From Pseudoxanthomonas mexicana (GTDB taxonomy: Bacteria; Pseudomonadota; Gammaproteobacteria; Xanthomonadales; Xanthomonadaceae): 64,000 nt of DNA. Location: positions 1 to 64,000 of the forward strand of contig NZ_PDWV01000016.1 in NCBI RefSeq assembly GCF_010093385.1, in the 5' to 3' direction. This document shows, piece by piece, positions 29,109 through 61,852 of the stretch (its first letter is position 1; the number at the start of each line of letters is the position of its first letter). The notes beneath the pieces are model-generated. The model saw only the letters and a list, made by a program, of their open reading frames with translations, was not told where the DNA came from and ran no database searches. A program made the translations under genes and the position numbers.

Positions 29109-29629
29109 CGTTACTTTCTCCAGGTTGATTGGGCGTGGCCGACCTCATCGGCGCGCATCGGACCGCTCAGTCCAGCAACATGATCTGCACGCGACGGTTG
29201 ACATCTGCCGCGGTGCGTCCGGACGCTTCAGTCCTTCTGAAGCGACCTGTCGGTATCCGGGGGTTGCGCTGATCGGCATGAGAGTGGAACCGCGCCTTGA
29301 CCTGGGTGGCCACGAGCCCGGTGATGCTCCTCTTCAGGCCCATCAGACCCAGCACGCCCTTGTGGGCCGCCACCCTGATCGTCGGTAAGGGCACCGCCGT
29401 ACCCAGTCCGGCCCACCCGCGAGGTCCCCAATCCACCTGTCCGCTGTTCCTCATCCGCTTGCCCGTCCCCGTGGTCCGGCGGCTGTCACGGCGCCGCACC
29501 GGTATGGAGAGAGCGTCACGGCACGGGCGGTCCCGCGTCCTCACGGAGGTTTCAAGAAACCTTCAAGCCCGCCGGGACGGGCTTTTCGCCTGCCCAATCG
29601 GGCCTATAACCGGCGTTATCATCGATCGC
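29109..29629. other. Divergent intergenic region with two hairpins
   Basis: 521 bases between the lipoprotein cluster (minus) and the kinase fusion (plus). GGTTTC-AA-GAAACC (29,548-29,561) is a perfect inverted repeat. AAGCCCG-N6-CGGGCTT (29,565-29,584) followed by TT resembles an intrinsic terminator 45 bases before the kinase ATG. A minus-strand frame at 29,167-29,544 ends in GRTAADVNRRVQIMLLD, which recalls the end of OmpA-like domains, but the rest is unconvincing; at most it is a remnant. Confidence 0.4.
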
Positions 29630-42262: not shown

Positions 42263-45200
42263 ATGGGGGGTCGCAAGGGAAATGGGGGCGGTATCGGCGC
42301 ATTGTTGCTGGGCGCCTTGGTGGTCATTCTGTTGATCCCCAAAGAGGTCTGGATTGCGCTGTTCTGGGTTGCCGTAGTGTCGCTTTTGGGTTGGGTTGGC
42401 TGGCGCCTGTTCCGCCACTGGCAGTCAGTCAAGCACGCCTCGGTATTGCCTCCTCCACCCGAGGACCCGGGTAAGACCCTAGCGGAAATCCTGAGTGAGT
42501 CATCGGCAGCTAGTCCCGCGGCGACACGGCACGTGGTTGGACCTGTCCCCGTCCCGCAGACTTCTGCTCCGCCTCCCCCCTCGAAGCTGGCAATTACGCC
42601 GCAAGCTGCCGAGCCCAGCCGGCCCGTCCCAGCGCACGAGCCCGTCCCCATCCGGACGACTTCACGGTCTGGCGATTGGGCCGACAATCGGGACACACTT
42701 GCCGCAGCTAACCGTGCACGCACAGACGAACTCCGCGCCAAGATTGCCGCGAGTGAAGCAAATCACAAGTCCCGGACGACTCAGCCTCCTGTAGCAGAAT
42801 TCGTACAGTCGCCCATCGTTGCCGATCCAACGCTGGATGCTGCACCTAGCGTGAGCTTGCAGCAAACATCCTGGGAGATTGAACGAGATCATGTTGCCAG
42901 CGAAAATCGCCAACGCGCCGAGAAGCTGCGAGCGAAGTTTCCAGATGTCCGCACCGTGTCGGAGGAATCAATAAGACTTTCGCCCGTGCCCAAGCCGGAC
43001 GAAGGCGCCCGAAAGGCATTGGAGCCAGCCGGCTTTGTTCCGGCGGTGACGCAGGCACCCTCCCCTCCTCCCCTGCCCTCAAGACCCGTTGAGCCGCCAC
43101 CGACCAGAAGCCACGTCGCGGACCCTGTCGCTCCAGCCGCAGTTCCTTCCAGCCGTCCTGTTCCTGTGCAAGATCCCGTCCCGGTTCGCACGACCTCACC
43201 GTTGCGTGCACTGGTCGACCTGGCCAGCCCCATCCGGCAGCCGGTGCCGCCACGCTGGGTACCTTTTGGCGAGACGGTTTCCATCCGTGGACAAGAAGTT
43301 GCCGGTGGCGGCTTCTACCTTGGCACACCGCGTAGCTACCAAGATGGCCGCTTGGCCGCGATTGATCCGACCCTACCCTTTTCGGGATTGGCAGATTGGC
43401 GTGGTGAAGGACTGGGTTACTGGCCAAGGTATGCCGCGCTCAATGATCGCGAGCGTGGGACCTTCCTGGCATTTCTGAACTCAGAGCGCCGAGCAGCTAC
43501 CGTCGGGATCGGCTACGTGTTCCTGTACTTCTACGGTCTTGAGTACCGTCTGCTGCGCGGACTGGCCGCCGGCGAGGATGGACGAGCCGAAGGCCTGCAA
43601 ATCCTGGAAGAAGTGGCGCGCCTGCAACTGCACTATGGCAGCCAAAGTTCATTCGGTCCTTACAGCCAGAAACTCTTGGCAGTGGGACGCTTCAAGTTAG
43701 GAGTGCCTGATGAGGTCACGGACCCGACCAACGACTGGGGTTTGGCCCAACACATCCAAGCAGCCCAAATGGTCGCGCGCCACCAGGCACTGAGTGCGGA
43801 TCTGGCCTTCGCTTGGGCTCAGGCACTGACCGATGAGGCACGGTCCACTACTTGGGACGTCGTTCGGCCGGAAATCAAAACCCGCTTTGGTCAACTGTAT
43901 GCGCAACGCTTTGGCGAGGGGCTGGTGGTCAAGCCCGGGCGCTCCAGACTCACCTTGAGCTATCGTTGGGCAGGTCCAGAGCTAGGCATGGAGACCATCC
44001 AGACGGACCTGCCGGATATCACCCGTAGCCAGGCTCCGATCCGTCCTCTCGTTGCGCTCGTTCAACAGGCCATGGGTGAGCTGGAGGCGCTGCGCCGGGT
44101 GCGACGTAGCAAGAGCGGCACGCCGATGGCGGAACTGGCGGCCATGCCCGATGCGCTGCGTGGTAGCCTGGTTCCCGCAACCTTCCGCGCCTTGGCATCA
44201 GAACTGGAAGGCCTGTTGGCGGACCAGCCCGTTGTCTGCCTTGCAACCTCGCGATTGATTGCTGGTTGCGGCATGGGCGCACCCGAACGACTGGGCAAGC
44301 GGGAAGCAACGTCCCTGATCCAGGCATTGGAGGCCTTGGGCTTTGCTATCGAGCCGGATGTGCGCTTTCACGGGCATCCGCCTGCGCTCGATGGACAGGT
44401 GGTGGTGTTCCGCCTACCGGAACATGCTGCGCGTACTCCCAGTGCAGCCTATGCCGCCGCATTGTTGATGCTTCAGGCCGCCCTCGCGGTGGCTGGACAA
44501 GGCAGCGAGATCATCCAGTCCGAACTTGATGTGGCGGTAGCGGCCATCGAGCGTCAGTTCGCGCTGCCGGAGAGCGAGCGGCGGCGCATCGAAGCCCACC
44601 TGCGGTGGCTGCAGCTCAACCCCATCACGTTGGCACGCCTTGAGAATCGAGTGCGTCTGCTGCCGGCATCCGAGCGCGAAGCTTTCGCGGGCGTGCTGCT
44701 GGAGATCGCGGCTGCTGATGGTCATGTCACCCCGGCCGAGGTGCGTGTGATCGAGCGCTTCTACCGGGCACTGGAGTTGGATCCTGCGCGGGTGCCAGCC
44801 GACCTTCACCATGCCAGTGTCGGCGGTCGTCCCAAGGCCAGCACAGGCGCTACCCTCAATGCCGATGTGATTGCCCAGAAGCTGGCAGAAACAGGACGAG
44901 TGCAATCAGTGCTGGCGCAGATCTTCAATGAGGCAGAAACACCGATGGCCGCGAGTGCACCCTCGCCCATACCGCCGGCGGCTCAAGCAGCAAGTCCTAC
45001 ACCTACCCCGTCCCAGCCGCAGGAGCTGTCGATCCCGGGCCTGGACGCAGAGCACATGACGCTTCTGCAGCACTTGTTGGGCGCGCCCGAAGACCAATGG
45101 TCCAGAAGTGACTTCGAAGCTGCGTGTGAGAGCCTGGATCTGTTGCCCGATGGCGCTGCGGAGATGCTCAACGAAGCGGCTTTCACGGTCGCTGGCGAGC

Positions 45201-45292
45201 CACTGTTGGACGGAGACGATCCGATGTACGTGAACGACTATGCGCGCGAGCAAATCGTGCAAATCCTGACCGATGAGAAGCCAAGCCCATGA
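42263..45292 (+). CDS. Membrane-anchored TerB-N/TerB/TerB-C protein
   Basis: 1,009 residues. Two N-terminal membrane segments (about 12-27 and 30-49) are followed by a Pro-rich linker to about residue 325 that contains an internal duplication (SRPVPAHEPVPIRTTS and SRPVPVQDPVPVRTTS; NRARTDELRAKIA and NRQRAEKLRAKFP). A TerB-N domain begins at about 330 (VAGGGFYLGTPRSYQDGRLAAIDP, YRLLRGL). A TerB-like acidic core is at about 810-845 (EIAAADGHVTPAEVRVIERFY), and a TerB-C-like end closes the protein. TerB domains are proposed metal-binding scaffolds. AGGAG precedes the ATG. The stop overlaps the next start by four bases. It probably tethers the partner ATPase and helicases to the inner membrane. 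Confidence 0.82.
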   Translation: MGGRKGNGGGIGALLLGALVVILLIPKEVWIALFWVAVVSLLGWVGWRLFRHWQSVKHASVLPPPPEDPGKTLAEILSESSAASPAATRHVVGPVPVPQTSAPPPPSKLAITPQAAEPSRPVPAHEPVPIRTTSRSGDWADNRDTLAAANRARTDELRAKIAASEANHKSRTTQPPVAEFVQSPIVADPTLDAAPSVSLQQTSWEIERDHVASENRQRAEKLRAKFPDVRTVSEESIRLSPVPKPDEGARKALEPAGFVPAVTQAPSPPPLPSRPVEPPPTRSHVADPVAPAAVPSSRPVPVQDPVPVRTTSPLRALVDLASPIRQPVPPRWVPFGETVSIRGQEVAGGGFYLGTPRSYQDGRLAAIDPTLPFSGLADWRGEGLGYWPRYAALNDRERGTFLAFLNSERRAATVGIGYVFLYFYGLEYRLLRGLAAGEDGRAEGLQILEEVARLQLHYGSQSSFGPYSQKLLAVGRFKLGVPDEVTDPTNDWGLAQHIQAAQMVARHQALSADLAFAWAQALTDEARSTTWDVVRPEIKTRFGQLYAQRFGEGLVVKPGRSRLTLSYRWAGPELGMETIQTDLPDITRSQAPIRPLVALVQQAMGELEALRRVRRSKSGTPMAELAAMPDALRGSLVPATFRALASELEGLLADQPVVCLATSRLIAGCGMGAPERLGKREATSLIQALEALGFAIEPDVRFHGHPPALDGQVVVFRLPEHAARTPSAAYAAALLMLQAALAVAGQGSEIIQSELDVAVAAIERQFALPESERRRIEAHLRWLQLNPITLARLENRVRLLPASEREAFAGVLLEIAAADGHVTPAEVRVIERFYRALELDPARVPADLHHASVGGRPKASTGATLNADVIAQKLAETGRVQSVLAQIFNEAETPMAASAPSPIPPAAQAASPTPTPSQPQELSIPGLDAEHMTLLQHLLGAPEDQWSRSDFEAACESLDLLPDGAAEMLNEAAFTVAGEPLLDGDDPMYVNDYAREQIVQILTDEKPSP

Positions 45293-46629
45293 CAACTGCT
45301 GTCCGAATCCCACCCCGTGATCGCGATGCCGTGCTCCAGGCGCTACGCGCCGGCGTAGTGCCGCGCCGCGGCCTGCAATATATCCAGGTTGGTCGCGCTC
45401 GCGAGGTCGAGGCGTTGATCAAGGATATCGACCGCATCAATGCTGCGGGCAGTGCGATTCGCTTTGTGATCGGTGACTTTGGCGCGGGCAAGACCTTCTT
45501 CCTGAGCCTGATACGCGCGGTGGCCCTTGAGAAGGGATTGATCACGATGACCGCGGACCTGAACCCCGATCGCCGCTTGTACGGCAGTGGCGGCCAAGCC
45601 CGGTCCCTGTACAGCGAACTCACCCGCAACATTGCCACGCGGACCAAGCCTGAAGGCGGCGCCATGGCCAGCGTCGTGGAGCGTTTCATTACCACCGCGC
45701 TGCAGCAGTCCAAAAGTACCGGCGAGTCGGTGGAATCGGTGATCCAGCAGTGTCTGCAGTCGCTGACCGAGTTGGTGGGTGGCTACGACTTTGCCCAGGT
45801 CATTGAGTGCTATTGGCGCGGACATGACCAAGGCAACGAGCAGCTCAAGGCCGATGCGGTCCGATGGCTGCGCGGGGAGTTCACCACCAAAACCGATGCA
45901 CGCCAGGCCTTGGGTGTTCGCACCATCATTGAGGATGACCAGGTCTATGACGGGATCAAGCTGCTGGCCCGGTTTATCCGACTGGCCGGCTACGGCGGCC
46001 TGCTCGTCTGCCTGGATGAGCTGGTAAACCTTTACAAGCTGCCCCACGCAACCGCGCGCAACACCAACTACGAGCAGATCCTACGCATCCTCAATGACAC
46101 GCTGCAGGGCAGTAGTGAGGGCTTGGGCTTCGTCTTCGGCGGGACGCCAGAGACCTTGTTGGATGCGCGCCGCGGTCTATACAGCTATCAGGCCCTGCAG
46201 TCCCGGCTATCTGAGAATGCTTTTGCCGCCCAGCAGGGACTACAGGATTTCGGTGGCCCAGTGATCCGGTTGGCCAACCTGACGCCGGAGGATCTCTACG
46301 TGCTGCTGACCAAGCTGCGGCATCTGCACGCCAGCGGAGATGCGGCCCAGTACGCCCTGCCCGATGACGCCTTGCCGGCGTTCCTGGCCCACTGTAATCA
46401 GCGAATCGGCGCGGCGTACTTTCAGACCCCGCGCAATACGGTCCGCGCGTTCCTGGACCTGTTGAGCGTGCTGGAACAACACGCTGATCTGGACTGGAAC
46501 CATCTGATCGAGGAGTTGGATATCGGTCTGGAGGTCAATACCGATCGCGATACCGAGGACGAAGGCGCAAGCCCTGGCCAGGCTCGGGCTACCGATCCTG
46601 ACGATGAGCTCTCATCGTTCCGGCTCTGA
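45289..46629 (+). CDS. DUF2791/BrxD-like P-loop ATPase
   Basis: 446 residues. Walker A GDFGAGKTF (62-70), Walker B GGLLVCLDEL and the phrases RGLQYIQVGRAREVEALI, LGFVFGGTPETLLDARRGL and FGGPVIRLANLTPEDLYVLL match DUF2791, the BrxD family of BREX-type systems. BrxD is typically encoded next to the Lhr-like helicase BrxHI, as here. No other BREX gene (pglX, pglZ, brxA, brxB, brxC) is present. It overlaps the TerB gene by four bases and just precedes the helicase gene. Confidence 0.85.
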   Translation: MTTAVRIPPRDRDAVLQALRAGVVPRRGLQYIQVGRAREVEALIKDIDRINAAGSAIRFVIGDFGAGKTFFLSLIRAVALEKGLITMTADLNPDRRLYGSGGQARSLYSELTRNIATRTKPEGGAMASVVERFITTALQQSKSTGESVESVIQQCLQSLTELVGGYDFAQVIECYWRGHDQGNEQLKADAVRWLRGEFTTKTDARQALGVRTIIEDDQVYDGIKLLARFIRLAGYGGLLVCLDELVNLYKLPHATARNTNYEQILRILNDTLQGSSEGLGFVFGGTPETLLDARRGLYSYQALQSRLSENAFAAQQGLQDFGGPVIRLANLTPEDLYVLLTKLRHLHASGDAAQYALPDDALPAFLAHCNQRIGAAYFQTPRNTVRAFLDLLSVLEQHADLDWNHLIEELDIGLEVNTDRDTEDEGASPGQARATDPDDELSSFRL

Positions 46630-46636
46630 GCCTGCG

Positions 46637-48973
46637 ATGGATCCGTTTGAGCTCCTACATCCCGGCATCCAGCGCTGGGTGTGGCAACAAGGTTGGCCGG
46701 CATTGCGGCAGATCCAGGCACAGGCTATTCCCTTGGTATTGGGCCGGCAAAACGATGTCGTCATCTCGGCACCGACGGCTGGCGGTAAGACCGAAGCGGC
46801 CTTCCTGCCGATCATGACGGACCTGGCCCAGTTCGAGAGTCCTGGACTGCGCTGCCTTTGCGTCTCCCCGCTGCGCGCCCTGATCAATGACCAGACCCGT
46901 CGCCTGACCTCGATGGCCGAAGCAGTCGATCTGCGTGTGCAACCTTGGCATGGAGACGTATCCGCTGGGCGTGCCAGTTTCTGGAAGCGCCCGGCCAATA
47001 TCCTGATCACCACGCCGGAGAGCCTGGAAGCGCTGCTGATGCGCCGTGGTGCGCAGTTCGGCGGCCTGCTCGGAGAACTGCGCTACCTGGTGGTAGACGA
47101 GCTGCATGCGTTCTTTGGCAGCGAGCGCGGCGCACAACTGCGCTCATTGCTCCAGCGCGTCGAGCGCCTGGTACCGCATCCCCTGCCCCGAATTGCGTTG
47201 TCGGCAACCCTGGGCGAGCCAGCGCGCGCAGGCGCCTTCCTGCGCCCACGCGGTGGCTTTCCCAACCAAATGCTGACTTCGACATCCGATGGCGGCGAGG
47301 TGCGGCTGCAGGTACGTGCGATCCAGCAGCACAGGGACCAGCAGGACGACCAGATCCAGACGATGGAAACCGCAGGTCATGCAGTAGAGCAACTCCTGGC
47401 GCAGATCGCCCGACAGCCAGTTGACGAGCATGTGCCCCTTCCGGCGCCCCCCGAAACGTTTGAAGAGCTGGAAGACAGCGAGCAGGCCCCGGCCGACCGC
47501 TACACGACCGCCCTGAACGAAATCTCGAACCACCTGTTCGAGCGTCTGCGAGGCGAGAGTCACCTGGTCTTCGCCAATGCACGGGCCCAGGTGGAGATCG
47601 TGGCGGACCAATTGCGCGAACGCGCAGAGGCCAAAGCGCTGCCCAACGAGTTTTTCCCACACCACGGCGCGCTTTCGCGCGAGCTGCGCCTGAGCGTGGA
47701 AGAGCGACTGCGCGACGGCAAGCTCCCTACGACGGCGGTATGTACCTCCACCCTGGAAATGGGCGTGGACCTGGGCGATGTCGTATCGATAGCCCAGATA
47801 GGTCCTGCCCCGTCGGTGGCCGCACTCAAACAGCGCATTGGCCGCTCCGGACGCCGGCCGGGCCAGCCACAGATCCTGCGGCAGTACGTTGTCCTGCCGG
47901 CACTGTCCTCGCGCAGCCATGCGGTGGACTGGCTGCGCCTGCCGTTGTTGCAGGCCATCGCCGCCATCGAGCTGATGCTGGCTGGTCGATTCGAGCCGCC
48001 GACGCAGGGCGACTTGCACCTGTCGACGTTGGTCCAACAGATCCTGTCCTTCATTTCCCAGAGCGGTGGCTGCTCGGCCGCCGAGTTGTACCGTGAGCTC
48101 TGCCAGCGGGGGGCTTTCTCCAACATCGATCAGCCCACGTTCGCCGACGTGCTGCGCTCCCTGGGTAGTGCCCAGCTCATCGAGCAGATCGACGATGGAA
48201 GCCTGTTGCCGGGCGCGGTCGGTGAGCGGCTGATGGAGCACTTCAGCTTCTATGCCACCTTCTTCACCCCTGAGGAGTACCAACTGCTATGCAGTGGCAA
48301 ACGGCTGGGCACCCTGCCGGTGATCGAACCACTGGTGCCTGGACACCTGATGCTTTTTGCCGGTCGGCGCTGGCGCATTCTGGAGGTCGATACACAAGCT
48401 CGCGTAGTGCTGCTCGCACCCGCCAAGGGCGGCAAGCCACCCACTTTTGGTGGAGGCGGCTTGGCTGTGCACGGCATCGTGCACCAGCGCATGCGTGAGC
48501 TTTTGGAGCAGTCCTCAATACCGGTCTACCTAGATGCGGTGGCCCAGCAGGGGCTGTTGGATGCTCGGGAGGCCTACAGCCTGTTCGGCTTTGATCAGAG
48601 TCCTCTCATCGCCTCCGGCGATGCAATGCACCTGGCCCATTGGGCCGGCGACCGCGTTGGCGTGACGATTGCACTGTGGCTCCAATGGCTGGAGATTGAG
48701 GCCATCAGTGCCGGGCCGTTTGTCGAAATAAACGGCGTGTCCGAAGTAGACATACCGCGCGTGCTCGAGGCCGCCCTACAGCGAGTTCCGGCCGATACGA
48801 TGATTCTGGCAGCAGAAAAAGAAGGCTTGGAGCGCAACAAGTTCGATCATTTCCTGCAGCCCGAGCTACTGGTCAAGGGCTATGCGGCTGCCGAGCTCGA
48901 CCTGGAAGGCGCACTGGAGGTGATCACGCAGTGGCATGGCGCAATAGTGCCTGGATCGCCCCACGCGACGTGA
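46637..48973 (+). CDS. BrxHI/Lhr-like SF2 DEAD/DEAH helicase
   Basis: 778 residues from the ATG at 46,637; an in-frame ATG at 46,604 overlaps the ATPase gene. Motif I is APTAGGKTEA (about 45-54), motif II VVDELH, motif III SATLG, and motif VI KQRIGRSGR. A winged-helix-like region and a C-terminal domain typical of Lhr/BrxHI helicases follow (HFSFYATFFTPEEYQLL, GRRWRILEVD). It likely unwinds or translocates on DNA with the BrxD-like ATPase. Its stop is about 110 bases before the SF1 helicase start. Confidence 0.86.
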   Translation: MDPFELLHPGIQRWVWQQGWPALRQIQAQAIPLVLGRQNDVVISAPTAGGKTEAAFLPIMTDLAQFESPGLRCLCVSPLRALINDQTRRLTSMAEAVDLRVQPWHGDVSAGRASFWKRPANILITTPESLEALLMRRGAQFGGLLGELRYLVVDELHAFFGSERGAQLRSLLQRVERLVPHPLPRIALSATLGEPARAGAFLRPRGGFPNQMLTSTSDGGEVRLQVRAIQQHRDQQDDQIQTMETAGHAVEQLLAQIARQPVDEHVPLPAPPETFEELEDSEQAPADRYTTALNEISNHLFERLRGESHLVFANARAQVEIVADQLRERAEAKALPNEFFPHHGALSRELRLSVEERLRDGKLPTTAVCTSTLEMGVDLGDVVSIAQIGPAPSVAALKQRIGRSGRRPGQPQILRQYVVLPALSSRSHAVDWLRLPLLQAIAAIELMLAGRFEPPTQGDLHLSTLVQQILSFISQSGGCSAAELYRELCQRGAFSNIDQPTFADVLRSLGSAQLIEQIDDGSLLPGAVGERLMEHFSFYATFFTPEEYQLLCSGKRLGTLPVIEPLVPGHLMLFAGRRWRILEVDTQARVVLLAPAKGGKPPTFGGGGLAVHGIVHQRMRELLEQSSIPVYLDAVAQQGLLDAREAYSLFGFDQSPLIASGDAMHLAHWAGDRVGVTIALWLQWLEIEAISAGPFVEINGVSEVDIPRVLEAALQRVPADTMILAAEKEGLERNKFDHFLQPELLVKGYAAAELDLEGALEVITQWHGAIVPGSPHAT

Positions 48974-49081
48974 TCCCTCAACGCACTCGCCAGATCCGCG
49001 CATTGAGCATGGCGACCGCTAGCCATGCTCAATGCTTGTAGGCCAGAATTCTTTCGATCCCATGGACGTGGAAAACTAAGG

Positions 49082-52000
49082 ATGGCAACTGAAGTTCGAC
49101 CTTATCTGAAGCTGAGAGTGGCGGAGCTGGAGTCGATCTTTGAGGCTTCGGCTTCAGATCCGGCTATCTGCCGGGACCTGATCGCTGAGCTTCGTCATCG
49201 CAAGACAGACAGGGCTGTCGCCCTGCTCGCGCGCGTGTCGATGGCAACCCATGAGACGGTCGCTGCACCTGCACCGCCGAGCGATACTTCCGAGCAGAAG
49301 ACCCGTCCCCTTCCAGCTCCCCAGCAGCCCAGCGAGCGACCAGCGGCTCCCGAGACCACATCAGCTGTTCCGCCAATTCAGCGCGCGCCAGCACGTCCCG
49401 CACCGCCGGTAACGAATTCACCCGGTGCCATCCTGTCGGCTTGGACGGCGCTGGAAGCACTGTCCCCGCAAACCTATAGGGAACCGGCTGATCTAGCCAA
49501 CGGAGACAAATACAACGTTGCGCCACTTGATGCCGGCACCCTGCCCTGGGAGCGTGGCGAGCGATCGCGACCGAACTTCCAACTCTATTATCAGATTGTC
49601 CTTGGCAGCATTCACGTCGATCGCGCCACTGATGAGCTGGTCAAGACCTTCGGCCAGGACGAGGAGTCGACCAGCAAGGCCCGGGAGCGCGCAGCCCTGG
49701 CCGCGGTACTTATCGACCGTCAGGGCATGCTGGTACAGGATAATGCGGTGGCGGTATCGAGCTTCGGCTGGGCTCTGCCCATTGCGCTGTCCGGCGATCT
49801 AGACAGCCTCGGCAGTTGGCCGGATGCCGAGCGGAACCTGGTGGAGGGACTGACCAAGCAACTGGGCGGCGCCAGGGATTCAGAGTCTTCCACCCCGCTC
49901 GACCTGGTCACCATCAACAAGGCATCCCAGTGGCTGGTCCAGACACTGGGACTGCCACCGGATCTCTATGAGTCGCCACAGTTCGCTGTGCGCGTGTACC
50001 ACTATTACAAGTCGAAGAACCCTCCCGAAGTCGCGCTGCTCAATTCGTTCTATCTAACCGACCTCACGCGTGCATCGACACTGCTGACCCAAGGCCGGCC
50101 GGGGCAGGCGCTGGCGCGTTTCATTGGTCAGCAGACCGTCACGCCCAGTCCGAACCTTCTGGAGCGCCATGATCTGATCGAGGCTTTGATCGCACCCGAG
50201 AAGATGCCGCTTGCGCGTTGGCCCGCGCCGGGAGGGCACCCCCTTGTGACGTTGCAACAAGCGGCCGTCAATGCCGCGCGCAGTGAGTTGGCCGGCAAAG
50301 GATCCGGCATCGTGGCCGTCAACGGCCCTCCCGGAACCGGCAAGACCACCCTCCTGCGCGACATCGTCGCCGCGTGCGTCATGGATCGAGCGGACGCACT
50401 GTGCAAGTTCGACGATCCGTTGACCGCATTCAGGAATACCGGACAGAAGATGTCGGCGGGCGATCGGGCGTTTCTCCACCTTTACAGCTTGGACGACTCT
50501 CTCAAGGGCCATGAGGTCGTCGTTGCCTCCAGCAACAACAAGGCAGTGGAGAACGTCAGCAAGGAGCTACCGGCCCTTAAGGCCGTCGGCAGAGACATCA
50601 GCTACTTCAGGACGGTGTCCGACGCACTGCTGGTCCGCGGGAGCGAGGATGGTCAGACAGTAGAGGGTGAACCCAGCTGGGGGCTGATTGCAGCCGTGCT
50701 CGGCAACGCACTTAACAGAGCTGCATTCCAGCGCGCGCTGTGGTGGGACGATGATCGAAGCCTGCGCCTCTATCTAAAGGCAGCAAAAGGCGATGCCGTC
50801 GTTCGCGAAGAGAAGGATCAGGCTGGCAACGTTATAAAGCGCAGGGTGCCGCTCGTGGTCAGCGCCGAAGTTCCTTCATCGCCTGAGCAAGCCAAAGCCA
50901 ACTGGCAGGTGGCGCGCAAGCACTACAACACCCTGCGCAAGGACATCACGCAACAGTTGGGCGTGCTGGAGATTGTCCGCCTGGCCTGTTTGGCGCTGGA
51001 GCCGGCCCGCTCGGCCAAGAATGCGGCCCTGAGCCGGCAGATGGCCGCCGCCGAAGCGCATGCCAATTGCGAACGCATTATCCATCGCACGGCCGATAAC
51101 TGTGAGCGGGCAATCCAGGCCCACGCGATCGCGCATCGCCAGGAACAGCAGGTGCTTTTCGACCGTCCGTCATGGTGGCACCGCCTTTTCAACACTCGCC
51201 GCATGCAGCAATGGAATCAGGCACATGTTCCGCTGGTGGCCGCCGTAGCTTTTGCACGTGACCGCAGGGCAAAAGCCACCCAGGCCCATGAGCGGGCGAC
51301 CGAGGCACTGCGCGAGGCGAACGGGGCCCTGCAGTCCAGCAAGCAGACGCTGGAGGCCTACTCCCAAAAGCTCGCAGCGCTGGAATCCACCATCGAGGCC
51401 CAACGACAGAGACTGGGCGATAGTCTGGTCGATGAAAATTTCTTCAAGCGAAGCCACGAGAACTGGAATCTGGCCTCTCCCTGGCTCCCGAAGGCACTGC
51501 ACGAACAACGGGAGAACCTGTTTGCGGCCGCTCTGGCGCTGCAGAAGGCGTTCATCGATGTCACGGCACAGAAGGTGTCCCACAACATCGGCGTTCTGAT
51601 GGGCGCAATGCACACCGGGGCTTTCCAGGACAAAGAGAAGAAGGCGCTGCTTCCCGACCTGTGGGCAACCCTTTTCCTTGTGTGCCCGGTCGTGTCGACC
51701 ACCTTCGCCTCGGTTGCACGGATGCTGGGGGACATGGCGCCGGAGTCGATTGGCTGGATCATGATCGATGAGGCAGGGCAAGCCACGCCACAGTCGGCGG
51801 TGGGTCTGCTAATGCGCGCCAAGCGGGCCATTGTCGTGGGTGATCCTCTCCAGATCCCTCCAGTGGTATCCCTCCCGCATCGGCTCACCCTGGAAGTGGC
51901 AAAGTACTTCGGCATCGATGCGGGGGACTGGCTGGCACCGGAGGCTTCGGTACAGACGCTGTCCGATCAGGCGTCCCGCTTCAGGGCGGTGTTTGGCGGC

Positions 52001-52639
52001 GATGTAGCGGTCAGGGAGGTGGGGCTGCCGCTGCTGGTGCATCGGCGCTGCCAGAATCCCATGTTCGACATCTCAAATCAGATCGCCTACGACAGGCAGA
52101 TGGTTCATGCAGCAGGACCTGCACCGGGTGGGCGTGTGCGTGCGGTGATTGGCCCGTCCAGCTGGTATGACGTGGACGGTGCTGCAGGCAGCAAATGGTG
52201 TCCCGAGGAAGGCGAGTGTGTCGTGGATCTGCTGCGGCAACTGGCTTCGGCGGGCGTGCATCAGCCGGACATCTATGTCATTACTCCCTTCAGGGTCGTG
52301 GCTTTTGAGATGCGCAAGCGCATTGCAGCCGAACCGGATCTGCTCAGTTCCCTCGGCGTAGATTCGAGGCAGTGGCTGCAGGATCGTGTGGGAACCATCC
52401 ACACGTTCCAAGGCAAGGAGGCGGAGGCAGTAATCGCGATATTGGGCGCTCCCATGGCGGCGCAGCAGGGGGCACGGCGCTGGGCTGCAAGCTCGCCCAA
52501 CATCTTCAATGTGATGGTGTCTCGCGCCAAGGATGCGTTGTATGTCGTGGGTTCGCATGCAGCGTGGTCAAGCGTCGGGTACGGGGTCGCTGTAGCCTCA
52601 CACTTGCCGCATGTGGGAGCTCAATCGCTAAGAAGATGA
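49082..52639 (+). CDS. UPF1-like SF1 helicase (AAA_11/AAA_12)
   Basis: 1,185 residues from the ATG at 49,082; an ATG at 49,025 would add 19. A small N-terminal helical domain (YLKLRVAELESIFEASASDP) and a Pro/Ala linker precede the helicase. Motif I is GPPGTGKT (415-422), followed by a long charged insertion with coiled coil (about 620-800). Motif II is MIDEAGQA (Asp896, Glu897), then VVGDPLQIPPV, LLVHRRCQ, TIHTFQGKEAEAV and MVSRAKDALYVVG. This is the Upf1/SF1B pattern. Same strand and spacing suggest it belongs to the TerB operon. No nuclease domain was recognised. Confidence 0.85.
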   Translation: MATEVRPYLKLRVAELESIFEASASDPAICRDLIAELRHRKTDRAVALLARVSMATHETVAAPAPPSDTSEQKTRPLPAPQQPSERPAAPETTSAVPPIQRAPARPAPPVTNSPGAILSAWTALEALSPQTYREPADLANGDKYNVAPLDAGTLPWERGERSRPNFQLYYQIVLGSIHVDRATDELVKTFGQDEESTSKARERAALAAVLIDRQGMLVQDNAVAVSSFGWALPIALSGDLDSLGSWPDAERNLVEGLTKQLGGARDSESSTPLDLVTINKASQWLVQTLGLPPDLYESPQFAVRVYHYYKSKNPPEVALLNSFYLTDLTRASTLLTQGRPGQALARFIGQQTVTPSPNLLERHDLIEALIAPEKMPLARWPAPGGHPLVTLQQAAVNAARSELAGKGSGIVAVNGPPGTGKTTLLRDIVAACVMDRADALCKFDDPLTAFRNTGQKMSAGDRAFLHLYSLDDSLKGHEVVVASSNNKAVENVSKELPALKAVGRDISYFRTVSDALLVRGSEDGQTVEGEPSWGLIAAVLGNALNRAAFQRALWWDDDRSLRLYLKAAKGDAVVREEKDQAGNVIKRRVPLVVSAEVPSSPEQAKANWQVARKHYNTLRKDITQQLGVLEIVRLACLALEPARSAKNAALSRQMAAAEAHANCERIIHRTADNCERAIQAHAIAHRQEQQVLFDRPSWWHRLFNTRRMQQWNQAHVPLVAAVAFARDRRAKATQAHERATEALREANGALQSSKQTLEAYSQKLAALESTIEAQRQRLGDSLVDENFFKRSHENWNLASPWLPKALHEQRENLFAAALALQKAFIDVTAQKVSHNIGVLMGAMHTGAFQDKEKKALLPDLWATLFLVCPVVSTTFASVARMLGDMAPESIGWIMIDEAGQATPQSAVGLLMRAKRAIVVGDPLQIPPVVSLPHRLTLEVAKYFGIDAGDWLAPEASVQTLSDQASRFRAVFGGDVAVREVGLPLLVHRRCQNPMFDISNQIAYDRQMVHAAGPAPGGRVRAVIGPSSWYDVDGAAGSKWCPEEGECVVDLLRQLASAGVHQPDIYVITPFRVVAFEMRKRIAAEPDLLSSLGVDSRQWLQDRVGTIHTFQGKEAEAVIAILGAPMAAQQGARRWAASSPNIFNVMVSRAKDALYVVGSHAAWSSVGYGVAVASHLPHVGAQSLRR

Positions 52640-52837: not shown

Positions 52838-55450
52838 TCACCCGATTCTCCTGCGGATCGCGGTGAACAGTGCATTCACCGCCTCTATGTCCTGGAGCAA
52901 CTCAGCAGGTTGCGTTACTGCACGCTGTTGGCCAGCAGCGTGGGAGTGCGCCCGTACGTTGCGGCAGCACTTGTCGTGCAGTCGCTGGACCTCGGCAAAC
53001 TCACTGGCTTCGACCTCCTTCACTCCGTCAAGTCGTCCAACTGAGATGTTGTCGCGGAACCTCACGACCGTGCCATTCAGGATGGTCTCCTCGATTCCAA
53101 CCTCAATTGTCACTCGCAGATCGTCGTACGCATTACGGGTAGCCAGTCGCTCCGCGTCTCCTGGCGGGTTATTGAACACCGCGGCAATCTGCTGTTGGTC
53201 GAGGCGATGCTGCGCAATGCGCTCCCTATGCTTACGCAGGTCGTATGGCAGACCGGCATCTATGTATCCGGGACCTTCAGCGCGGTAGGCAATGGACCGA
53301 ACACTAGGCTCAGCACCCGCATCTTGCGCAAGCGTAGTCAATTCGCCGAAGAACACAGCGTCGTGCGTGAAAACAATCACCTGTCGAACTACGGACTCCG
53401 CCACGATACGACGTGCAACAGCAGTTCGATGATTATGGTCTAGGCTGGACACGGGGTCGTCGAAGACGACTCCTGAAGTCGAGCCTGACTGGTGGAGCTC
53501 GGCAAAGAAGTAGGCCAACGCACACATCCGCTGCTCAGCCTCGCTGAGGACAAGGTGGGGGTCTAACTGGCTGCCGGACAGGACGATACCCAGCCTAGTG
53601 GAACCCGCATCGCCCGTGGAGCTGATTTCAGCGCGGATGTGGTAGAGGTCCAGGCGTTCAAGCTCCTGGTTCATTCTGGCAGCAAGGGCGTCGCTGACGT
53701 GCCTCCGAGCGAGCTGCCCAGCGAAGGTGGTGATTGGCCTGGTGTTTCCGACGTCCGCTAGGCAGCTTTCAAGCTTGGCCTTGTGGACCAGGTTCCGCAC
53801 AACAAGGGCGATACTCTCTATGTGCTCCGAGAGTACGCTTCTCGTCTGGAGCTCCCTCAGACGACGGCGCTTCGCCGCCAAGGCTTCTGCATCAAGATTG
53901 GCTCGCATGGCCGCAGCTTCGGCGCGCAGGTCATTCGCAATCTGACGAATTGCAGGAGCGGGGCTGACAACTCGGAAAGCGGGCCTATTATCCCACTGCC
54001 CACCTGATACGGCACGTTGGAGCCACCTCAGCCGAGAGGCCAGATCTTCTTGGAATGTGCGGATACCAGCCGGCAGAGTATCCACTCGACGACCGAGGCT
54101 TGTAGCCATTGTGTCAGAGAGAGTGAAGGACGCGCTTGCCTGCGCGACCTCGCCGACGATCTGCTGCCATCTCGTGCGCGCCTGCTGCGCGGTTGCAGAG
54201 GCGGAATCTCGCACAAATCGGTCGAACCTTTGCAGTCGCTCCTTCGCGACCGGCGACAGCTCCTGCTGGCATAGAAGGCACTGAGCCCCATCTCCTGTCA
54301 CTGGGAATGCGTTCGCCACATACGCAGCGCGCGTTGAAAACTCGCGCGCCGCACTGAATAACAATGCCCAGGGCCCTTGCCCTGTCCCAGGGAGTAACTG
54401 CTCAGGGTCTTCCGACTGCAAGAGAGCCGCGGCAGCCCGCTCCGCAATCTCAGCCTCTCGCAGCATCAGGTAGGCGGAATGCTTGGCGTCAAGCAACTCG
54501 TCGGACACAACGTTAGCCGCTTCAACCGCACTGACCAACTCATCGACCCTTGTTGCCGCGTTCTCTAGAACGGTAGCCTTGGATGTAGGGTCCGCCTCGG
54601 CGATCTCTTGCGGAAGGCGAGCTAGCTCTTGCATCTCATCAGGAGACAGGTTGGCGAGCCTGCGCACTTGGTCCAAGTCGGTGCGCGTACTTACTGGATG
54701 CAGGGCACGCCCCGCTTCGGTGTCAACGGGAATGACATTGAACGGCGCTGTATTTACGGCGAGCGTATTGATCTCAGCTTGAAGTCTGGGCCGCAGCGCC
54801 TGATTGAGTCCGCTAGCTAGCTGCTGCAGTTGGGTCAAGGCCACCGGCTGGAAAGTCGCAACCTCTCTCGTCTGGAGATAGTGCCGCGCGCAGTCGCCGT
54901 CAAAAACTGCGATGGCTCGCAGTGCTGCGGGGGCGACGTGCCCGCGCCGACCACTCCAGTTCGCCTCATGGGGCTCATCGTCTACTAGGAAGGTGAGCGA
55001 TGCGCTGGGTGTAAGTTGTTGGAACTGCGGATCATAGGCGTTGGGGTAGACCGCCCCAGGGCTCCTCGCACGACAAGCCTGCTTGAGTACACGTGCATAC
55101 CCCGATTTGCCGGTGCCGTTGCCTCCATACGCGATGGTCAAGCCCTGTGCTGCGAACTCGAGCACCTGGTCGCCCGGGATTCTCCCGACGTTGTTCAGTG
55201 TGTGAAGGGAAGTGAGCGTTACCAGTGCGCCATCGGTCGCTTCTGCCGGGAAGTGATCCTCTGCAAATGGCGCTGGCTCGATGGCCGGCTCTAGTCCGCT
55301 CGCGACGCCGTGTTGCTGCTTGGCGAGATCCAGGAGCTCGTCCAAGTCTTGGTCGCTCCACGAGCCGTGGACGCATAGACGACGCAGCGCGTCCTGACGC
55401 CATATCGGCAACCTTCCAGACCAAGCCAACACTTCCTCGTAAATGGCCAT
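52838..55450 (-). CDS. AAA ATPase (AAA_13-like) with CxxC hook-like motif and RNxxxH end
   Basis: 870 residues from the ATG at 55,450, chosen for GGGGAG upstream and the family-like beginning IYEEVLAWSGRLPIWRQDALRR. Walker A GGNGTGKS is at 109-116, Walker B with signature in SGVVFDDPVSSLDHNHR (660-674), and switch His in VFTHDAVFF. A central helical region carries CLLC (391-394), placed like the zinc-hook of RloC/Rad50-type proteins. Near the C-terminus R830-N-x3-H835 matches the HEPN RNase consensus. RloC/PrrC-type ATPase nucleases act in phage defence; whether this protein is one is inference. Convergent with the SF1 helicase gene. Confidence 0.75.
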   Translation of the reverse strand: MAIYEEVLAWSGRLPIWRQDALRRLCVHGSWSDQDLDELLDLAKQQHGVASGLEPAIEPAPFAEDHFPAEATDGALVTLTSLHTLNNVGRIPGDQVLEFAAQGLTIAYGGNGTGKSGYARVLKQACRARSPGAVYPNAYDPQFQQLTPSASLTFLVDDEPHEANWSGRRGHVAPAALRAIAVFDGDCARHYLQTREVATFQPVALTQLQQLASGLNQALRPRLQAEINTLAVNTAPFNVIPVDTEAGRALHPVSTRTDLDQVRRLANLSPDEMQELARLPQEIAEADPTSKATVLENAATRVDELVSAVEAANVVSDELLDAKHSAYLMLREAEIAERAAAALLQSEDPEQLLPGTGQGPWALLFSAAREFSTRAAYVANAFPVTGDGAQCLLCQQELSPVAKERLQRFDRFVRDSASATAQQARTRWQQIVGEVAQASASFTLSDTMATSLGRRVDTLPAGIRTFQEDLASRLRWLQRAVSGGQWDNRPAFRVVSPAPAIRQIANDLRAEAAAMRANLDAEALAAKRRRLRELQTRSVLSEHIESIALVVRNLVHKAKLESCLADVGNTRPITTFAGQLARRHVSDALAARMNQELERLDLYHIRAEISSTGDAGSTRLGIVLSGSQLDPHLVLSEAEQRMCALAYFFAELHQSGSTSGVVFDDPVSSLDHNHRTAVARRIVAESVVRQVIVFTHDAVFFGELTTLAQDAGAEPSVRSIAYRAEGPGYIDAGLPYDLRKHRERIAQHRLDQQQIAAVFNNPPGDAERLATRNAYDDLRVTIEVGIEETILNGTVVRFRDNISVGRLDGVKEVEASEFAEVQRLHDKCCRNVRAHSHAAGQQRAVTQPAELLQDIEAVNALFTAIRRRIG

Positions 55451-55893
55451 GCCCTGCTCCCCATTCCACTCCCGTGTCTCCAGCATACGGATCAGCAGGC
55501 CCGCAGACGATCTACCTCCTGAGCCACGGCAAGTTCGCCCTGGCGGGTCCACCGCTTGTGCCGGTTTCACACGGGCTGTCAGTCGGGCTCAACCCTTGGC
55601 TCAGACCCGGAAGCCGTTGATTTTAACTATTATTTTCAGCCACTTAGTTGCAGCGAACCCTAACTCACAATGCAAGGGGCGGAGATTCGGCGGAAACGCG
55701 GACGAACCTCATTCCCCGCTACACCAAAGCTGAGCTAGAGGGGCGGGGGGGGGGCGGGGACCACGAGGCCTAGGGCCTAGACTTCCCTTAGCTTGCTTGA
55801 CACTCCTTTGCAGGCGCAATGGAATGCAGCAAAGTCGGCGGCTTCAACAACCTTTGAGACGTCCTTAGCAGCGTCTAGTCCACTCTTGGAAGA
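55451..55893. other. Intergenic region with poly-G tract
   Basis: 443 bases between the ATPase and BRCT genes, which diverge. It holds a run of ten G (55,745-55,754) inside a G-rich patch. Just before it, on the minus strand, GCCCCTC-TA-GCTCAG resembles a tRNA 5-prime end, but the rest does not fold as a tRNA. No gene was recognised. Confidence 0.4.
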
Positions 55894-56796
55894 ATGATCA
55901 TGCATCCAGATCAGCAGCCGTACGCTAAGTTCACAGGCAAGGCTCGTCTAGATAGATCAATCAACTCACTTCTTGGCATCATTGAGGGAATTGCCATTGA
56001 TGGGCGCATCAACGAGCTTGAGGTCAGCTACCTCAACATATGGCTTGAAGAGCACGAAGAGCTGAGAGATCTACATCCGTTCAACGAATTTGGGCCGCTA
56101 GTATCGGCAGCCTTAAGCGACGGGGTACTCGATCCTGAAGAACGAGAAGACATTGTGTGGCTTTGCGAGAGGCTGCGGTCGCAAGAGTTCTACGATCAAA
56201 CAACGTCCGATCTCCAGCGACTTCACGCAATACTTGGCGGCATAGTCGCGGACACTAAGATTACCGAAGAAGAGCTCAGGGGACTGTCTGAGTGGATGGA
56301 GCAGCATCCTCATTTGAGATCCTGCTGGCCATTCGATGAGATAGGTAGCTTGATAACCGGCGTGCTTGCGGACAAGAGGATAGATCCCCATGAGCACGAC
56401 CTACTCAGCTCCTTCTTCGCTGAGTTCACCGCGCTTCTAGACTCTAAAACAATAGTGAAGGCACCCGTTACTGAGCCAGAGTCAGGCCAAGTCGTTGGAC
56501 TATGCGCAGTCGATCCCGAGATTTTGTTTGAGAATCGCGGATTCTGCTTTACCGGAGCATCTAATCGATTCACGCGCTCACAGCTTGAACATATCGTCTC
56601 TCGCCTTGGAGGGACAAGCCATGCGAGTCCCTCAAAGAAAGTCCACTACGTGGTTATCGGAGCCGAGGGGAACCAATGCTGGGCTTACTCGTGCTATGGG
56701 CGCAAAGTGGAGAAAGCGATCAAGCTGCGCAAGGAGGGCGTACGAGTCGTAATTGTGCACGAACTGGATTTCCATGACGCTGTTGCAAACTACTGA
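55894..56796 (+). CDS. BRCT-domain protein with TerB-like acidic N-terminus
   Basis: 300 residues; an ATG two codons further on has better spacing to GGAAGA. Residues about 208-290 form a BRCT domain of the DNA-ligase/RFC type (ENRGFCFTGASNRFTRSQLEHIVSRLGG, KVHYVVIGAEG, RVVIVHELDF). The N-terminal 190 residues contain three similar segments with the pattern D-x-x-I/L-x-x-x-E (IDGRINELEVSYL, SDGVLDPEEREDI, ADTKITEEELRGL; also ADKRIDPHEHDLL), like the acidic loops of TerB proteins. BRCT domains bind phosphopeptides or DNA ends. A role in sensing DNA damage is inference. Confidence 0.75.
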   Translation: MIMHPDQQPYAKFTGKARLDRSINSLLGIIEGIAIDGRINELEVSYLNIWLEEHEELRDLHPFNEFGPLVSAALSDGVLDPEEREDIVWLCERLRSQEFYDQTTSDLQRLHAILGGIVADTKITEEELRGLSEWMEQHPHLRSCWPFDEIGSLITGVLADKRIDPHEHDLLSSFFAEFTALLDSKTIVKAPVTEPESGQVVGLCAVDPEILFENRGFCFTGASNRFTRSQLEHIVSRLGGTSHASPSKKVHYVVIGAEGNQCWAYSCYGRKVEKAIKLRKEGVRVVIVHELDFHDAVANY

Positions 56797-57041: not shown

Positions 57042-57881
57042 ATGCTGACCAGCTTCACTCGCCGACACAAGCTCGACTACGAACCATGCAAACTGCGGTA
57101 CAAATTCGTACCCGCCGCATTCCGCTACGACCTACTCAAGACCGTTCTGGAACGGATCCACGACAGCGAGGACGGGCACCTACGCGAATACGGCGTCTAT
57201 CGCCACCTGTCGGTGATGGTCAACAAGGACTACGAGCGGTTGGTCGGCGAGGACACCATCAACGAGTTTTACAGCAGCGACCTGCTTGTGGACCTAGTGC
57301 TGACCGCGCAGTGGCATGAAGTGCTGAGCATGGTCGAGGCGCTCATCGCCATTCGGCGGCTGAAGCGAAGGGAGGCGAACGACCTGTTCGACTACCACCA
57401 CATCGGCTACGAAGCCACGGATCACGGTGCCGGAACCGTGCAGGTCGAGGTCAAGTACGACGCATTGGTGGAAGAAGTCGATCGGGCGGAGGAGGCCGCG
57501 TCCCAACACCCGGCGATCGCCGCGCTGCTGCGCGATGCGCGGCAGGCCCTGGTCGCGCCGAAGGAAGTGTCCGCCGAAAACTCGATCACGAACTCGATGA
57601 AGGCCATCGAGGGCTACCTGAAGGCCTGGCTTGCCGAGAAAGGCGTCAAAGCCTCGACCTTAGGCGAAGCCGTGAAGGAGATCCGGAGCAGAAAGCTCGT
57701 CGATACGACGATCGCCAACGCCTTAGAACAGTTTTACATCTACCGGAACAAGCAGCCGAACATCGGCCATGGTAGCGTTGCCCCCTCCGATGCTGGCCAC
57801 AGCGAAGCGCTGCTGGTGCTGGACATGGCATCGAGCTTCATCAACTACTTCCATCGGCTGGATGGCAACAGCCCTCCTTGA
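57042..57881 (+). CDS. Abortive-infection-like protein with Abi_C (HEPN-type) end
   Basis: 279 residues. The C-terminal 100 residues fit the Abi_C family: SITNSMKAIEGYLKAWLAEKG, LVDTTIANALEQFYIYRNKQ, then GHGSVAPSDAGHSEALLVLDMASSFINYF. In this family an RNK....HG segment is conserved and belongs to the HEPN-like fold of putative RNases. The N-terminal 120 residues are unrecognised. It stands alone on the plus strand inside the defence-like region, next to the integrase gene. A suicide-type antiphage role is the family-based expectation, not shown here. Confidence 0.7.
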   Translation: MLTSFTRRHKLDYEPCKLRYKFVPAAFRYDLLKTVLERIHDSEDGHLREYGVYRHLSVMVNKDYERLVGEDTINEFYSSDLLVDLVLTAQWHEVLSMVEALIAIRRLKRREANDLFDYHHIGYEATDHGAGTVQVEVKYDALVEEVDRAEEAASQHPAIAALLRDARQALVAPKEVSAENSITNSMKAIEGYLKAWLAEKGVKASTLGEAVKEIRSRKLVDTTIANALEQFYIYRNKQPNIGHGSVAPSDAGHSEALLVLDMASSFINYFHRLDGNSPP

Positions 57882-58242: not shown

Positions 58243-59457
58243 TTACGCCACCTTCTTGCGAATTGACGCAACCTTCTTCTCAGAATTCCGCAAGCTATCC
58301 AGATAGTCGGCCCAACCCTGCATCATCTTTCTGCGTTCCGGCAGATGCGCAGTGCGGTTATACGCGCGCCCCAGAGGATCGCGCACGGCATGCGCCAGTT
58401 GGTGCTCGATGTAATCCGGACGAAACCCCAGGACTTCATCCAACACGGTGCGCGCCATCGCGCGAAAGCCGTGACCTACAATGGTTTCGCCATCAAACCC
58501 CAGATTGCGAAGGGCAGCATTGACCGTGTTCTCGCTCATGGGGCGGTCGGAGCTACGTACGCCCGGAAACACGTAAGCGCTACGCTTCGTCAATGGCCAG
58601 AGCTCCTCCAGCACGGCAGCAGCTTGTGTGGACAAGGGCACGATATGCGCCGTCTTAGTCTTGCTGGTTATGTAGCGCCACTCGCGGGCATCCAAGTCGA
58701 TATCTGCCCACTTGGCCTGTCGCAGTTCGCCAGGCCGCACGAAAAGCATAGGAGCGAGCCTGAGGGCTGCGCAGGTCACAGGTGAGCCCTGGTAGGCCCA
58801 CAGCGCGCGCAAAAGCTCGCCGATTCGATCAGGCTCGGTAAGGCTGGCAAAGTGCTTTGTCTGTGGCTGCTCAAGTGCACCCGCAAGATCGTCAGCGGGA
58901 TTTCGTTGGGCCCTGCCAGTAGCGATCGCATAGCGAAAAACTCGTCCTGCATGAGACCGCGCACGGTGGGCGGTCTCCACGATGCCCCTCTGTTCGAGCT
59001 TCCGCAGGGCTGCCAGGAGAATGGGGGCGCTGACGTCAGCAATGGGCATATCGCAAATTGACGCCAGATCCTTCTCGATCAGGCGCCGCTCTCGCTTCAC
59101 AGATCCTGGACTGAGACCTTCCTTCGCGCGCTTGGCCAACAACTCCAGCCCGATAGATCCGAATGTACTGTTCGCCCGCTCAGCCTGCACGGCCCGTTCG
59201 GCTCGAGCCACATGAGCCGGATTGGCGCCCCCCTTAAGCAAGGCGCGCAGCTTGTCGCGTTCAGCGCGCGCCTGCATGAGCGACAGCGCAGGGTACTCGC
59301 CCATCGTCACGATGCTTGGCTTACCCGCGTAGCGGTAGCGGTAGCGCCAAACCTTTGCGCCCGTGGGGCGAACCTCAATACATAGGCCATTGGAATCGGC
59401 CACCCTGTGGGAGGCTTCCTTGGACTTCAGCGCGCGCAGCTTGGTATCCGTAAGCAT
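58243..59457 (-). CDS. P4-type tyrosine integrase (DUF4102)
   Basis: 404 residues, the usual length. The N-terminal DUF4102 arm-binding domain begins MLTDTKLRALKSKEASHRVAD. Catalytic residues are present: Arg241 (RPGELRQAKW), His329 and Arg332 (GHGFRAMART), the EHQLAHAV box and Tyr366 (AYNRTAHLPERR). It catalyses site-specific integration, typically into tRNA 3-prime ends, and its gene starts 177 bases from such an end here. It looks functional. Confidence 0.95.
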   Translation of the reverse strand: MLTDTKLRALKSKEASHRVADSNGLCIEVRPTGAKVWRYRYRYAGKPSIVTMGEYPALSLMQARAERDKLRALLKGGANPAHVARAERAVQAERANSTFGSIGLELLAKRAKEGLSPGSVKRERRLIEKDLASICDMPIADVSAPILLAALRKLEQRGIVETAHRARSHAGRVFRYAIATGRAQRNPADDLAGALEQPQTKHFASLTEPDRIGELLRALWAYQGSPVTCAALRLAPMLFVRPGELRQAKWADIDLDAREWRYITSKTKTAHIVPLSTQAAAVLEELWPLTKRSAYVFPGVRSSDRPMSENTVNAALRNLGFDGETIVGHGFRAMARTVLDEVLGFRPDYIEHQLAHAVRDPLGRAYNRTAHLPERRKMMQGWADYLDSLRNSEKKVASIRKKVA

Positions 59458-59634: not shown

Positions 59635-59710
59635 TGGTGGGCCCACCAGGACTCGAACCTGGAACCAAAGGATTATGAGTCCTCTGCTCTAACCATTGAG
59701 CTATAGGCCC
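59635..59710 (-). tRNA. tRNA with CAT anticodon (tRNA-Ile2 or elongator tRNA-Met); probable att site at its 3-prime end
   Basis: The minus strand folds as a complete tRNA. The acceptor GGGCCTA pairs with TGGGCCC, followed by A and an encoded CCA. The D-stem is GCTC/GAGC, the anticodon stem GAGGA/TCCTT with loop CTCATAA, and the T-stem CCAGG/CCTGG with TTCGAGT. The short D-loop (AATGGTTA) and ACTCATAATC context resemble lysidine-type tRNA-Ile2 more than tRNA-Met. The 3-prime end faces the integrase, so the tRNA probably serves as the attachment site. No second copy of its 3-prime end was found by eye in the window. Confidence 0.93.

Positions 59711-59998: not shown

Positions 59999-61852
<1,854 letters not shown>

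Follow-up and report, generated by a model that had tools for sequence, protein, structure and literature searches.

Does a run of four genes in Pseudoxanthomonas mexicana encode a new anti-phage system, or a known one with a separate neighbor? The genes occupy positions 42263 to 52639 of a 64,000-nucleotide stretch of contig NZ_PDWV01000016.1 (assembly GCF_010093385.1), the whole of which we call the window. A first-pass annotation had read them as a single four-gene operon, a candidate undescribed defense system with BREX-like partners, adding that a profile match to a complete named system would speak against this. We conclude instead that genes 1–3 are very probably a complete Shango anti-phage operon, and that the helicase gene downstream of it, gene 4, is probably a separate unit within the same integrase/tRNA defense island.

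The identification of Shango rests on PADLOC profiles together with conserved gene order. The best match of gene 1 is SngA (E 1.9e-66, residues 297-1001), that of gene 2 is SngB (E 9.5e-178, versus 6.6e-48 for BrxD), and that of gene 3 is SngC (E 2.4e-250, with BrxHI second at 2.5e-116); the three lie adjacent, in the order sngA-sngB-sngC, across 42263-48973. Because the profiles name genes 1–3 as a complete Shango, the claim of an undescribed system falls for these three: this is a known system, already named and tested. The defense function that had been proposed for the locus is supported, since genes 1–3 are Shango and their island also carries an integrase gene and two genes that PADLOC lists as defense candidates. 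Millman et al. 2022 is reportedly the work cited in the literature for Shango.

In the available text of a study of P. aeruginosa PA14, Shango consists of three genes, encoding a TerB-like protein, an ATPase and a DEAD/DEAH helicase; cloned into PAO1, it cut plating modestly, 10-100-fold, for many but not all of the phages tested (PMC10250203). A large multi-domain helicase gene adjoins PA14 Shango; it lies outside the cloned operon and, in that text, is not named as a member of the system (PMC10250203). The window copy is like Shango in all three proteins, in their order and tight packing and in its location in a defense island, and unlike it in its host, in the separate superfamily 1 (SF1) helicase gene that follows it and in a SngA with a degenerate first TerB motif.

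The genes themselves are much as the first-pass annotation had drawn them. ORF calls and translations confirm four long open reading frames (ORFs), all on the forward strand (Table), and genes 1 and 2 do overlap by four bases. For gene 3 there are two possible starts: 46604, which gives the longest ORF and overlaps gene 2, and 46637, seven bases past gene 2. The alignments of most relatives begin at about residue 10-15, so we favor the latter, as annotated. Pfam also upholds the domain calls. Gene 1 contains TerB_N, TerB and TerB_C, all above their cut-offs; gene 2 belongs to BrxC_BrxD, presumably the former DUF2791; gene 3, the Lhr-like superfamily 2 (SF2) helicase, matches DEAD and Helicase_C and, below the cut-off, a winged helix of the Lhr type; and gene 4 is a UPF1-like SF1 helicase. 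Motif scans found the ATPase motifs intact in gene 2 (Walker A and DE), gene 3 (motif I, DELH and motif VI) and gene 4 (Walker A and DEAG).

The gene order is conserved in other genomes. An SngB profile made from a 9-sequence alignment found at least 541 relatives in genome contigs; we kept the best 80, all from other genomes. The sngA-B-C order is intact in 74 of these 80 loci, and the two that lack sngA both start at a contig end. With the genome of the window itself counted, 7 of 321 genomes surveyed in the class (at E 1e-60) and 14 of 397 in the order (at E 1e-100) carry SngB; outside that genome, the A-B-C order holds in all 6 loci of the class and all 13 of the order. The three SngB sets may overlap, and their counts are not summed. 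Among the neighbors of the 80 loci (748 ORFs of at least 100 residues) no family was found in more than five loci, and phage records held no SngB match.

The N-terminal hydrophobic stretch of SngA, which had been annotated as a two-helix membrane anchor, is present, and a hydrophobicity scan reports it as one segment; such a segment occurs in 48 of 73 untruncated SngA frames. In the aligned TerB stretch, the acidic residues E429, D494 and E501 are invariant (32/32 sequences), and the second TerB motif of the window protein is intact. An AlphaFold model of residues 326-1009 has a mean predicted local distance difference test score (pLDDT) of 87.6. The model had no match in the PDB at E 0.001 or better; its top fold matches, both weaker than that, are the TerB-like 2h5n and 2ou3, and no nuclease appears among the 50 matches listed. 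Pfam matches of genes 1–3 at E 0.1 likewise include no nuclease family.

What, then, is gene 4? Its longest ORF begins at ATG 49025, 51 bases past gene 3, but its relatives align from the position of Met 49082, which is probably the true start and would leave 108 bases to sngC. The best reading of the protein is an uncharacterized Mokosh-like SF1 helicase with no phospholipase-D motif and a putative role in defense. That it is the Mokosh type II protein MkoC itself is unlikely. MkoC is indeed its top PADLOC match (E 7.5e-62), and the two are alike in the SF1 helicase core; yet the match joins residues 405-1178 to profile positions 247-944 of 1136 only, the first 404 residues of gene 4 are unmatched, a motif scan found no HxKx4D phospholipase-D motif, and Pfam found no phospholipase-D family. 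Gene 4 also reaches no NCBIfam cut-off. Its AlphaFold model, made from 5 sequences, has a mean pLDDT of 50.9, too poor for a fold search.

Gene 4 is probably a module separate from Shango, and the proposed four-gene operon finds no support. A full-length relative of gene 4 is found in none of the 80 best SngB loci, where, of the 76 with sngC, 56 extend 4 kb or more past it; in one of the 80, L074, a single partial match to a helicase lies some 5 kb beyond sngC, on the opposite strand. The 13 loci of the order, read in stretches of 11-20 kb, contain no full-length gene-4 relative either (0/13). The copy from the same genus (genome G619, locus L137, SngB 93%) shows similarity to the window in just two blocks, 42272-42492 and 43220-48936, the second of which stops 37 bases short of the end of sngC, and its 20 kb stretch holds no full-length gene-4 relative; in L038 (SngB 84%), similarity to the window is again confined to Shango. 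Viewed from the other side, a search of the 321 genomes of the class found gene-4-like genes in 5 (E 1e-40), of which only the genome of the window also has SngB, and 16 of the 18 gene-4 loci outside the window have no Shango gene at E 1e-10.

The alternative is a four-gene variant of Shango, in which gene 4 would serve as an accessory helicase, giving the system a wider range or more strength in this lineage. It appears quite improbable, although several observations fit it. Gene 4 is on the same strand as sngC and close to it, and both E. coli H5 and Klebsiella record OK490421 have a relative of it in one island with Shango genes. PA14 Shango, too, has a large helicase gene alongside (PMC10250203), a possible relative of gene 4. 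Set against these, besides the absence of a full-length relative from all 80 and all 13 other Shango loci, is the arrangement in E. coli H5 (L127), where gene 4 is convergent with a complete sngABC and so is not co-transcribed with it; in OK490421 (L122, a record marked unverified), gene 4 occurs with GajA, GajB and a convergent sngC that runs to the end of the record. A DNA search with the L122 stretch matched 451 of 5426 E. coli genomes, and among the 20 E. coli records listed by coverage, H5 and H6 cover gene 4 while the others cover at most 19% of the query. In the published test, three genes sufficed for protection (PMC10250203).

In the window itself, gene 4 is preceded not only by the 108-base gap but by a hairpin, a perfect inverted repeat within which ATG 49025 falls. 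The RNA of this interval (48974-49081) is predicted to fold with a z of -3.0, and none of 200 shuffles was as good; a scan for T-tract terminators did not report the repeat. The hairpin could possibly be a transcript end or an attenuator.

Several points weigh against the reading of genes 1–3 as Shango with gene 4 as a separate module. Phage protection is published for the PA14 operon, and the window copy is known from sequence alone. In window SngA the first TerB DG..E motif (residues 747-754, positions 44501-44524) is degenerate, with G where 30 of 32 sequences have D. By a crude test, 25 of 73 SngA frames have no N-terminal hydrophobic segment; either the anchor is not universal in SngA or start codons are misplaced. 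Four of the 80 loci (L061, L089, L106 and L117) have no detectable sngC despite at least 2 kb past sngB; such SngA-SngB pairs may represent two-gene forms, or copies that have decayed. Nor can the 18 gene-4 loci be counted as independent, as L122, L123 and L127 are one family, to whose gene that of L010 is nearly identical; the L123 stretch stops right after gene 4, leaving the downstream side outside it; and L015, L034-L036 and L126 are related more distantly or only in part. Finally, one enterobacterial island family (L122, L127) contains both Shango and a gene-4 relative, and there may be some functional tie between the two. As a separate observation, two of the four SngA-SngB pairs come from Leptolyngbyaceae.

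The remaining alternative, a degenerate or minimal relative of BREX type 2 in which genes 2 and 3 are BrxD and BrxHI, is highly improbable: gene 2 does belong to BrxC_BrxD and BrxHI is the second match of gene 3, but SngB beats BrxD by 428 bits for gene 2, which scores 159.8 bits against an NCBIfam BREX_BrxD equivalog cut-off of 350, and the whole genome has no match to PF08665 (PglZ, which the control found in 2 of 14 genomes) and no BrxC/D protein besides gene 2. The annotated lack of BREX core genes is borne out: BrxD/BrxHI likeness aside, PADLOC found none in the 14 window proteins given to it and Pfam none in 24, and the genome-wide search, which covered PglZ and BrxC/D, agrees. Judged by sequence comparison, genes 2 and 3 resemble BREX proteins at the level of the family and no further: SngB is a distant homolog of BrxD, and SngC one of BrxHI, while the SngB and SngC profiles score far better. 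This locus differs from BREX type 2 in having a TerB protein and no PglZ in the genome. One study groups SngC with BrxHI, DruE and DpdJ in what may be an SF2 clade of their own (PMC12278908), which explains the initial impression of BREX.

We grouped near full-length relatives of gene 4 with at least 37% identity into 12 lineages, in which the window counts as one, L122, L123 and L127 count as one, and the 5 distant or partial loci are excluded. Strong PADLOC system matches lie near 7 of the 12 (the window, L010, L011, L012, L118, L122 and L125), a description of chosen neighbors with no random control. The relatives stand near Septu PtuA/PtuB in L010, near IetA/IetS in L011 and near Gabija (GajA, GajB) in L122; in L125, QatA/QatB lie directly 3' of the gene. 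In L012 (9995-15094) and L118 (6992-12261) a gene for a type IV methyl-directed restriction enzyme lies directly downstream of the relative, in the same orientation, and the two enzymes are 51% identical; this pairing is a candidate two-gene module. L121, where a DrmMII-type methyltransferase (1.5e-70) stands beside weak matches to helicases, was excluded from the seven; the scanned neighbors of L033 and L124 gave no strong PADLOC match, the single one scanned in L120 gave no match, and L119 contributes no scanned neighbors to the count. Five phage records match gene 4, one of them across at least 80% of it, and 4 gene-4 loci are on viral contigs. We see an even chance that gene 4 represents an unnamed family of SF1 helicases of about 1100-1200 residues, a stand-alone mobile defense gene, sometimes with a type IV restriction enzyme, that moves among Shango, Gabija, Septu, IetAS and Qat islands.

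The best reading of the locus as a whole is an integrase/tRNA defense island that holds Shango and a Mokosh-like SF1 helicase (Table). The left side of the island has genes for a MobA/MobL relaxase, RadC, DUF932 and DUF3987 (Pfam). G+C falls near 32 kb, but no far attachment site was found. The 3' end of the tRNA gene is not repeated in the window, whether sought as a 25-mer with up to 3 mismatches, in shorter forms or as exact seeds of at least 14 bases around the tRNA, and the genome holds no second full copy of it. Three other genes may be recorded. The MobA/MobL relaxase-like protein at 36014-36724 matches PADLOC DpdH at 3.5e-58, and the DpdH model may include relaxases. The gene at 29297-32365 encodes a protein kinase of 1022 residues that also has TPR repeats and a DNA-binding domain of the transcriptional-regulator kind. 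Beside the defense genes, 55894-56796 encodes a BRCT-domain protein that matches phage family phrog_3989 (4.8e-89), whose function is unassigned.

Table. Features of the Shango locus and its island, in window coordinates.
Feature	Position	Strand	Content or basis
sngA (gene 1)	42263..45292	+	N-terminal hydrophobic stretch (probable anchor), Pro-rich linker, TerB_N-TerB-TerB_C
sngB (gene 2)	45289..46629	+	BrxC/BrxD-family ATPase; Walker A GDFGAGKT at residue 62
sngC (gene 3)	46637..48973 (longest ORF from 46604)	+	Lhr-like SF2 helicase; SAPTAGGKT, DELH, QRIGRSGR
Perfect 14-bp inverted repeat, 8-base loop	49000..49035 (arms 49000-49013 / 49022-49035)		Repeat search
Gene 4	49082..52639 (probable start; longest ORF from 49025)	+	UPF1/Mokosh-type SF1 helicase, AAA_11/AAA_12
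PDC-S06-type AAA/SMC-like ATPase, candidate defense gene	52838..55570	-	PADLOC PDC-S06 E 5.4e-164
PDC-S32-type protein, candidate defense gene	57042..57881	+	PADLOC PDC-S32 E 7e-22; AbiJ_NTD4 25.3 bits, below cut-off 34
Tyrosine integrase	58243..59457	-	Pfam Phage_integrase, Phage_int_M, Arm-DNA-bind_3
CAT-anticodon tRNA gene, likely integration site	59635..59710	-	ARAGORN
rpoD-type sigma factor gene, beyond tRNA	59999-61852		Sigma-70 domains

How might Shango act? A literature search, thin on subscription papers, turned up no title devoted to its mechanism. We suggest, tentatively and with less than even confidence, that an ATPase-helicase machine tethered to the membrane stalls phage DNA and does not cut it. 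SngA would sit at the inner membrane, its TerB domains serving as scaffold or sensor, and the SngB ATPase and the Lhr-type translocase SngC would assemble on it. The complex would load onto phage DNA during entry or replication and stall or displace phage replication or transcription. No cleavage is proposed because no nuclease domain was found in SngA, SngB or SngC. Gene 4 most likely acts alone or with other partners on the nucleic acid of invading elements.

Overall, these data remove a false "new four-gene system", and the gene order provides a test for where Shango ends. They also bring into view the helicase family of gene 4, which stands beside several different defense systems, falls outside NCBIfam cut-offs and is only partly covered by the MkoC model.

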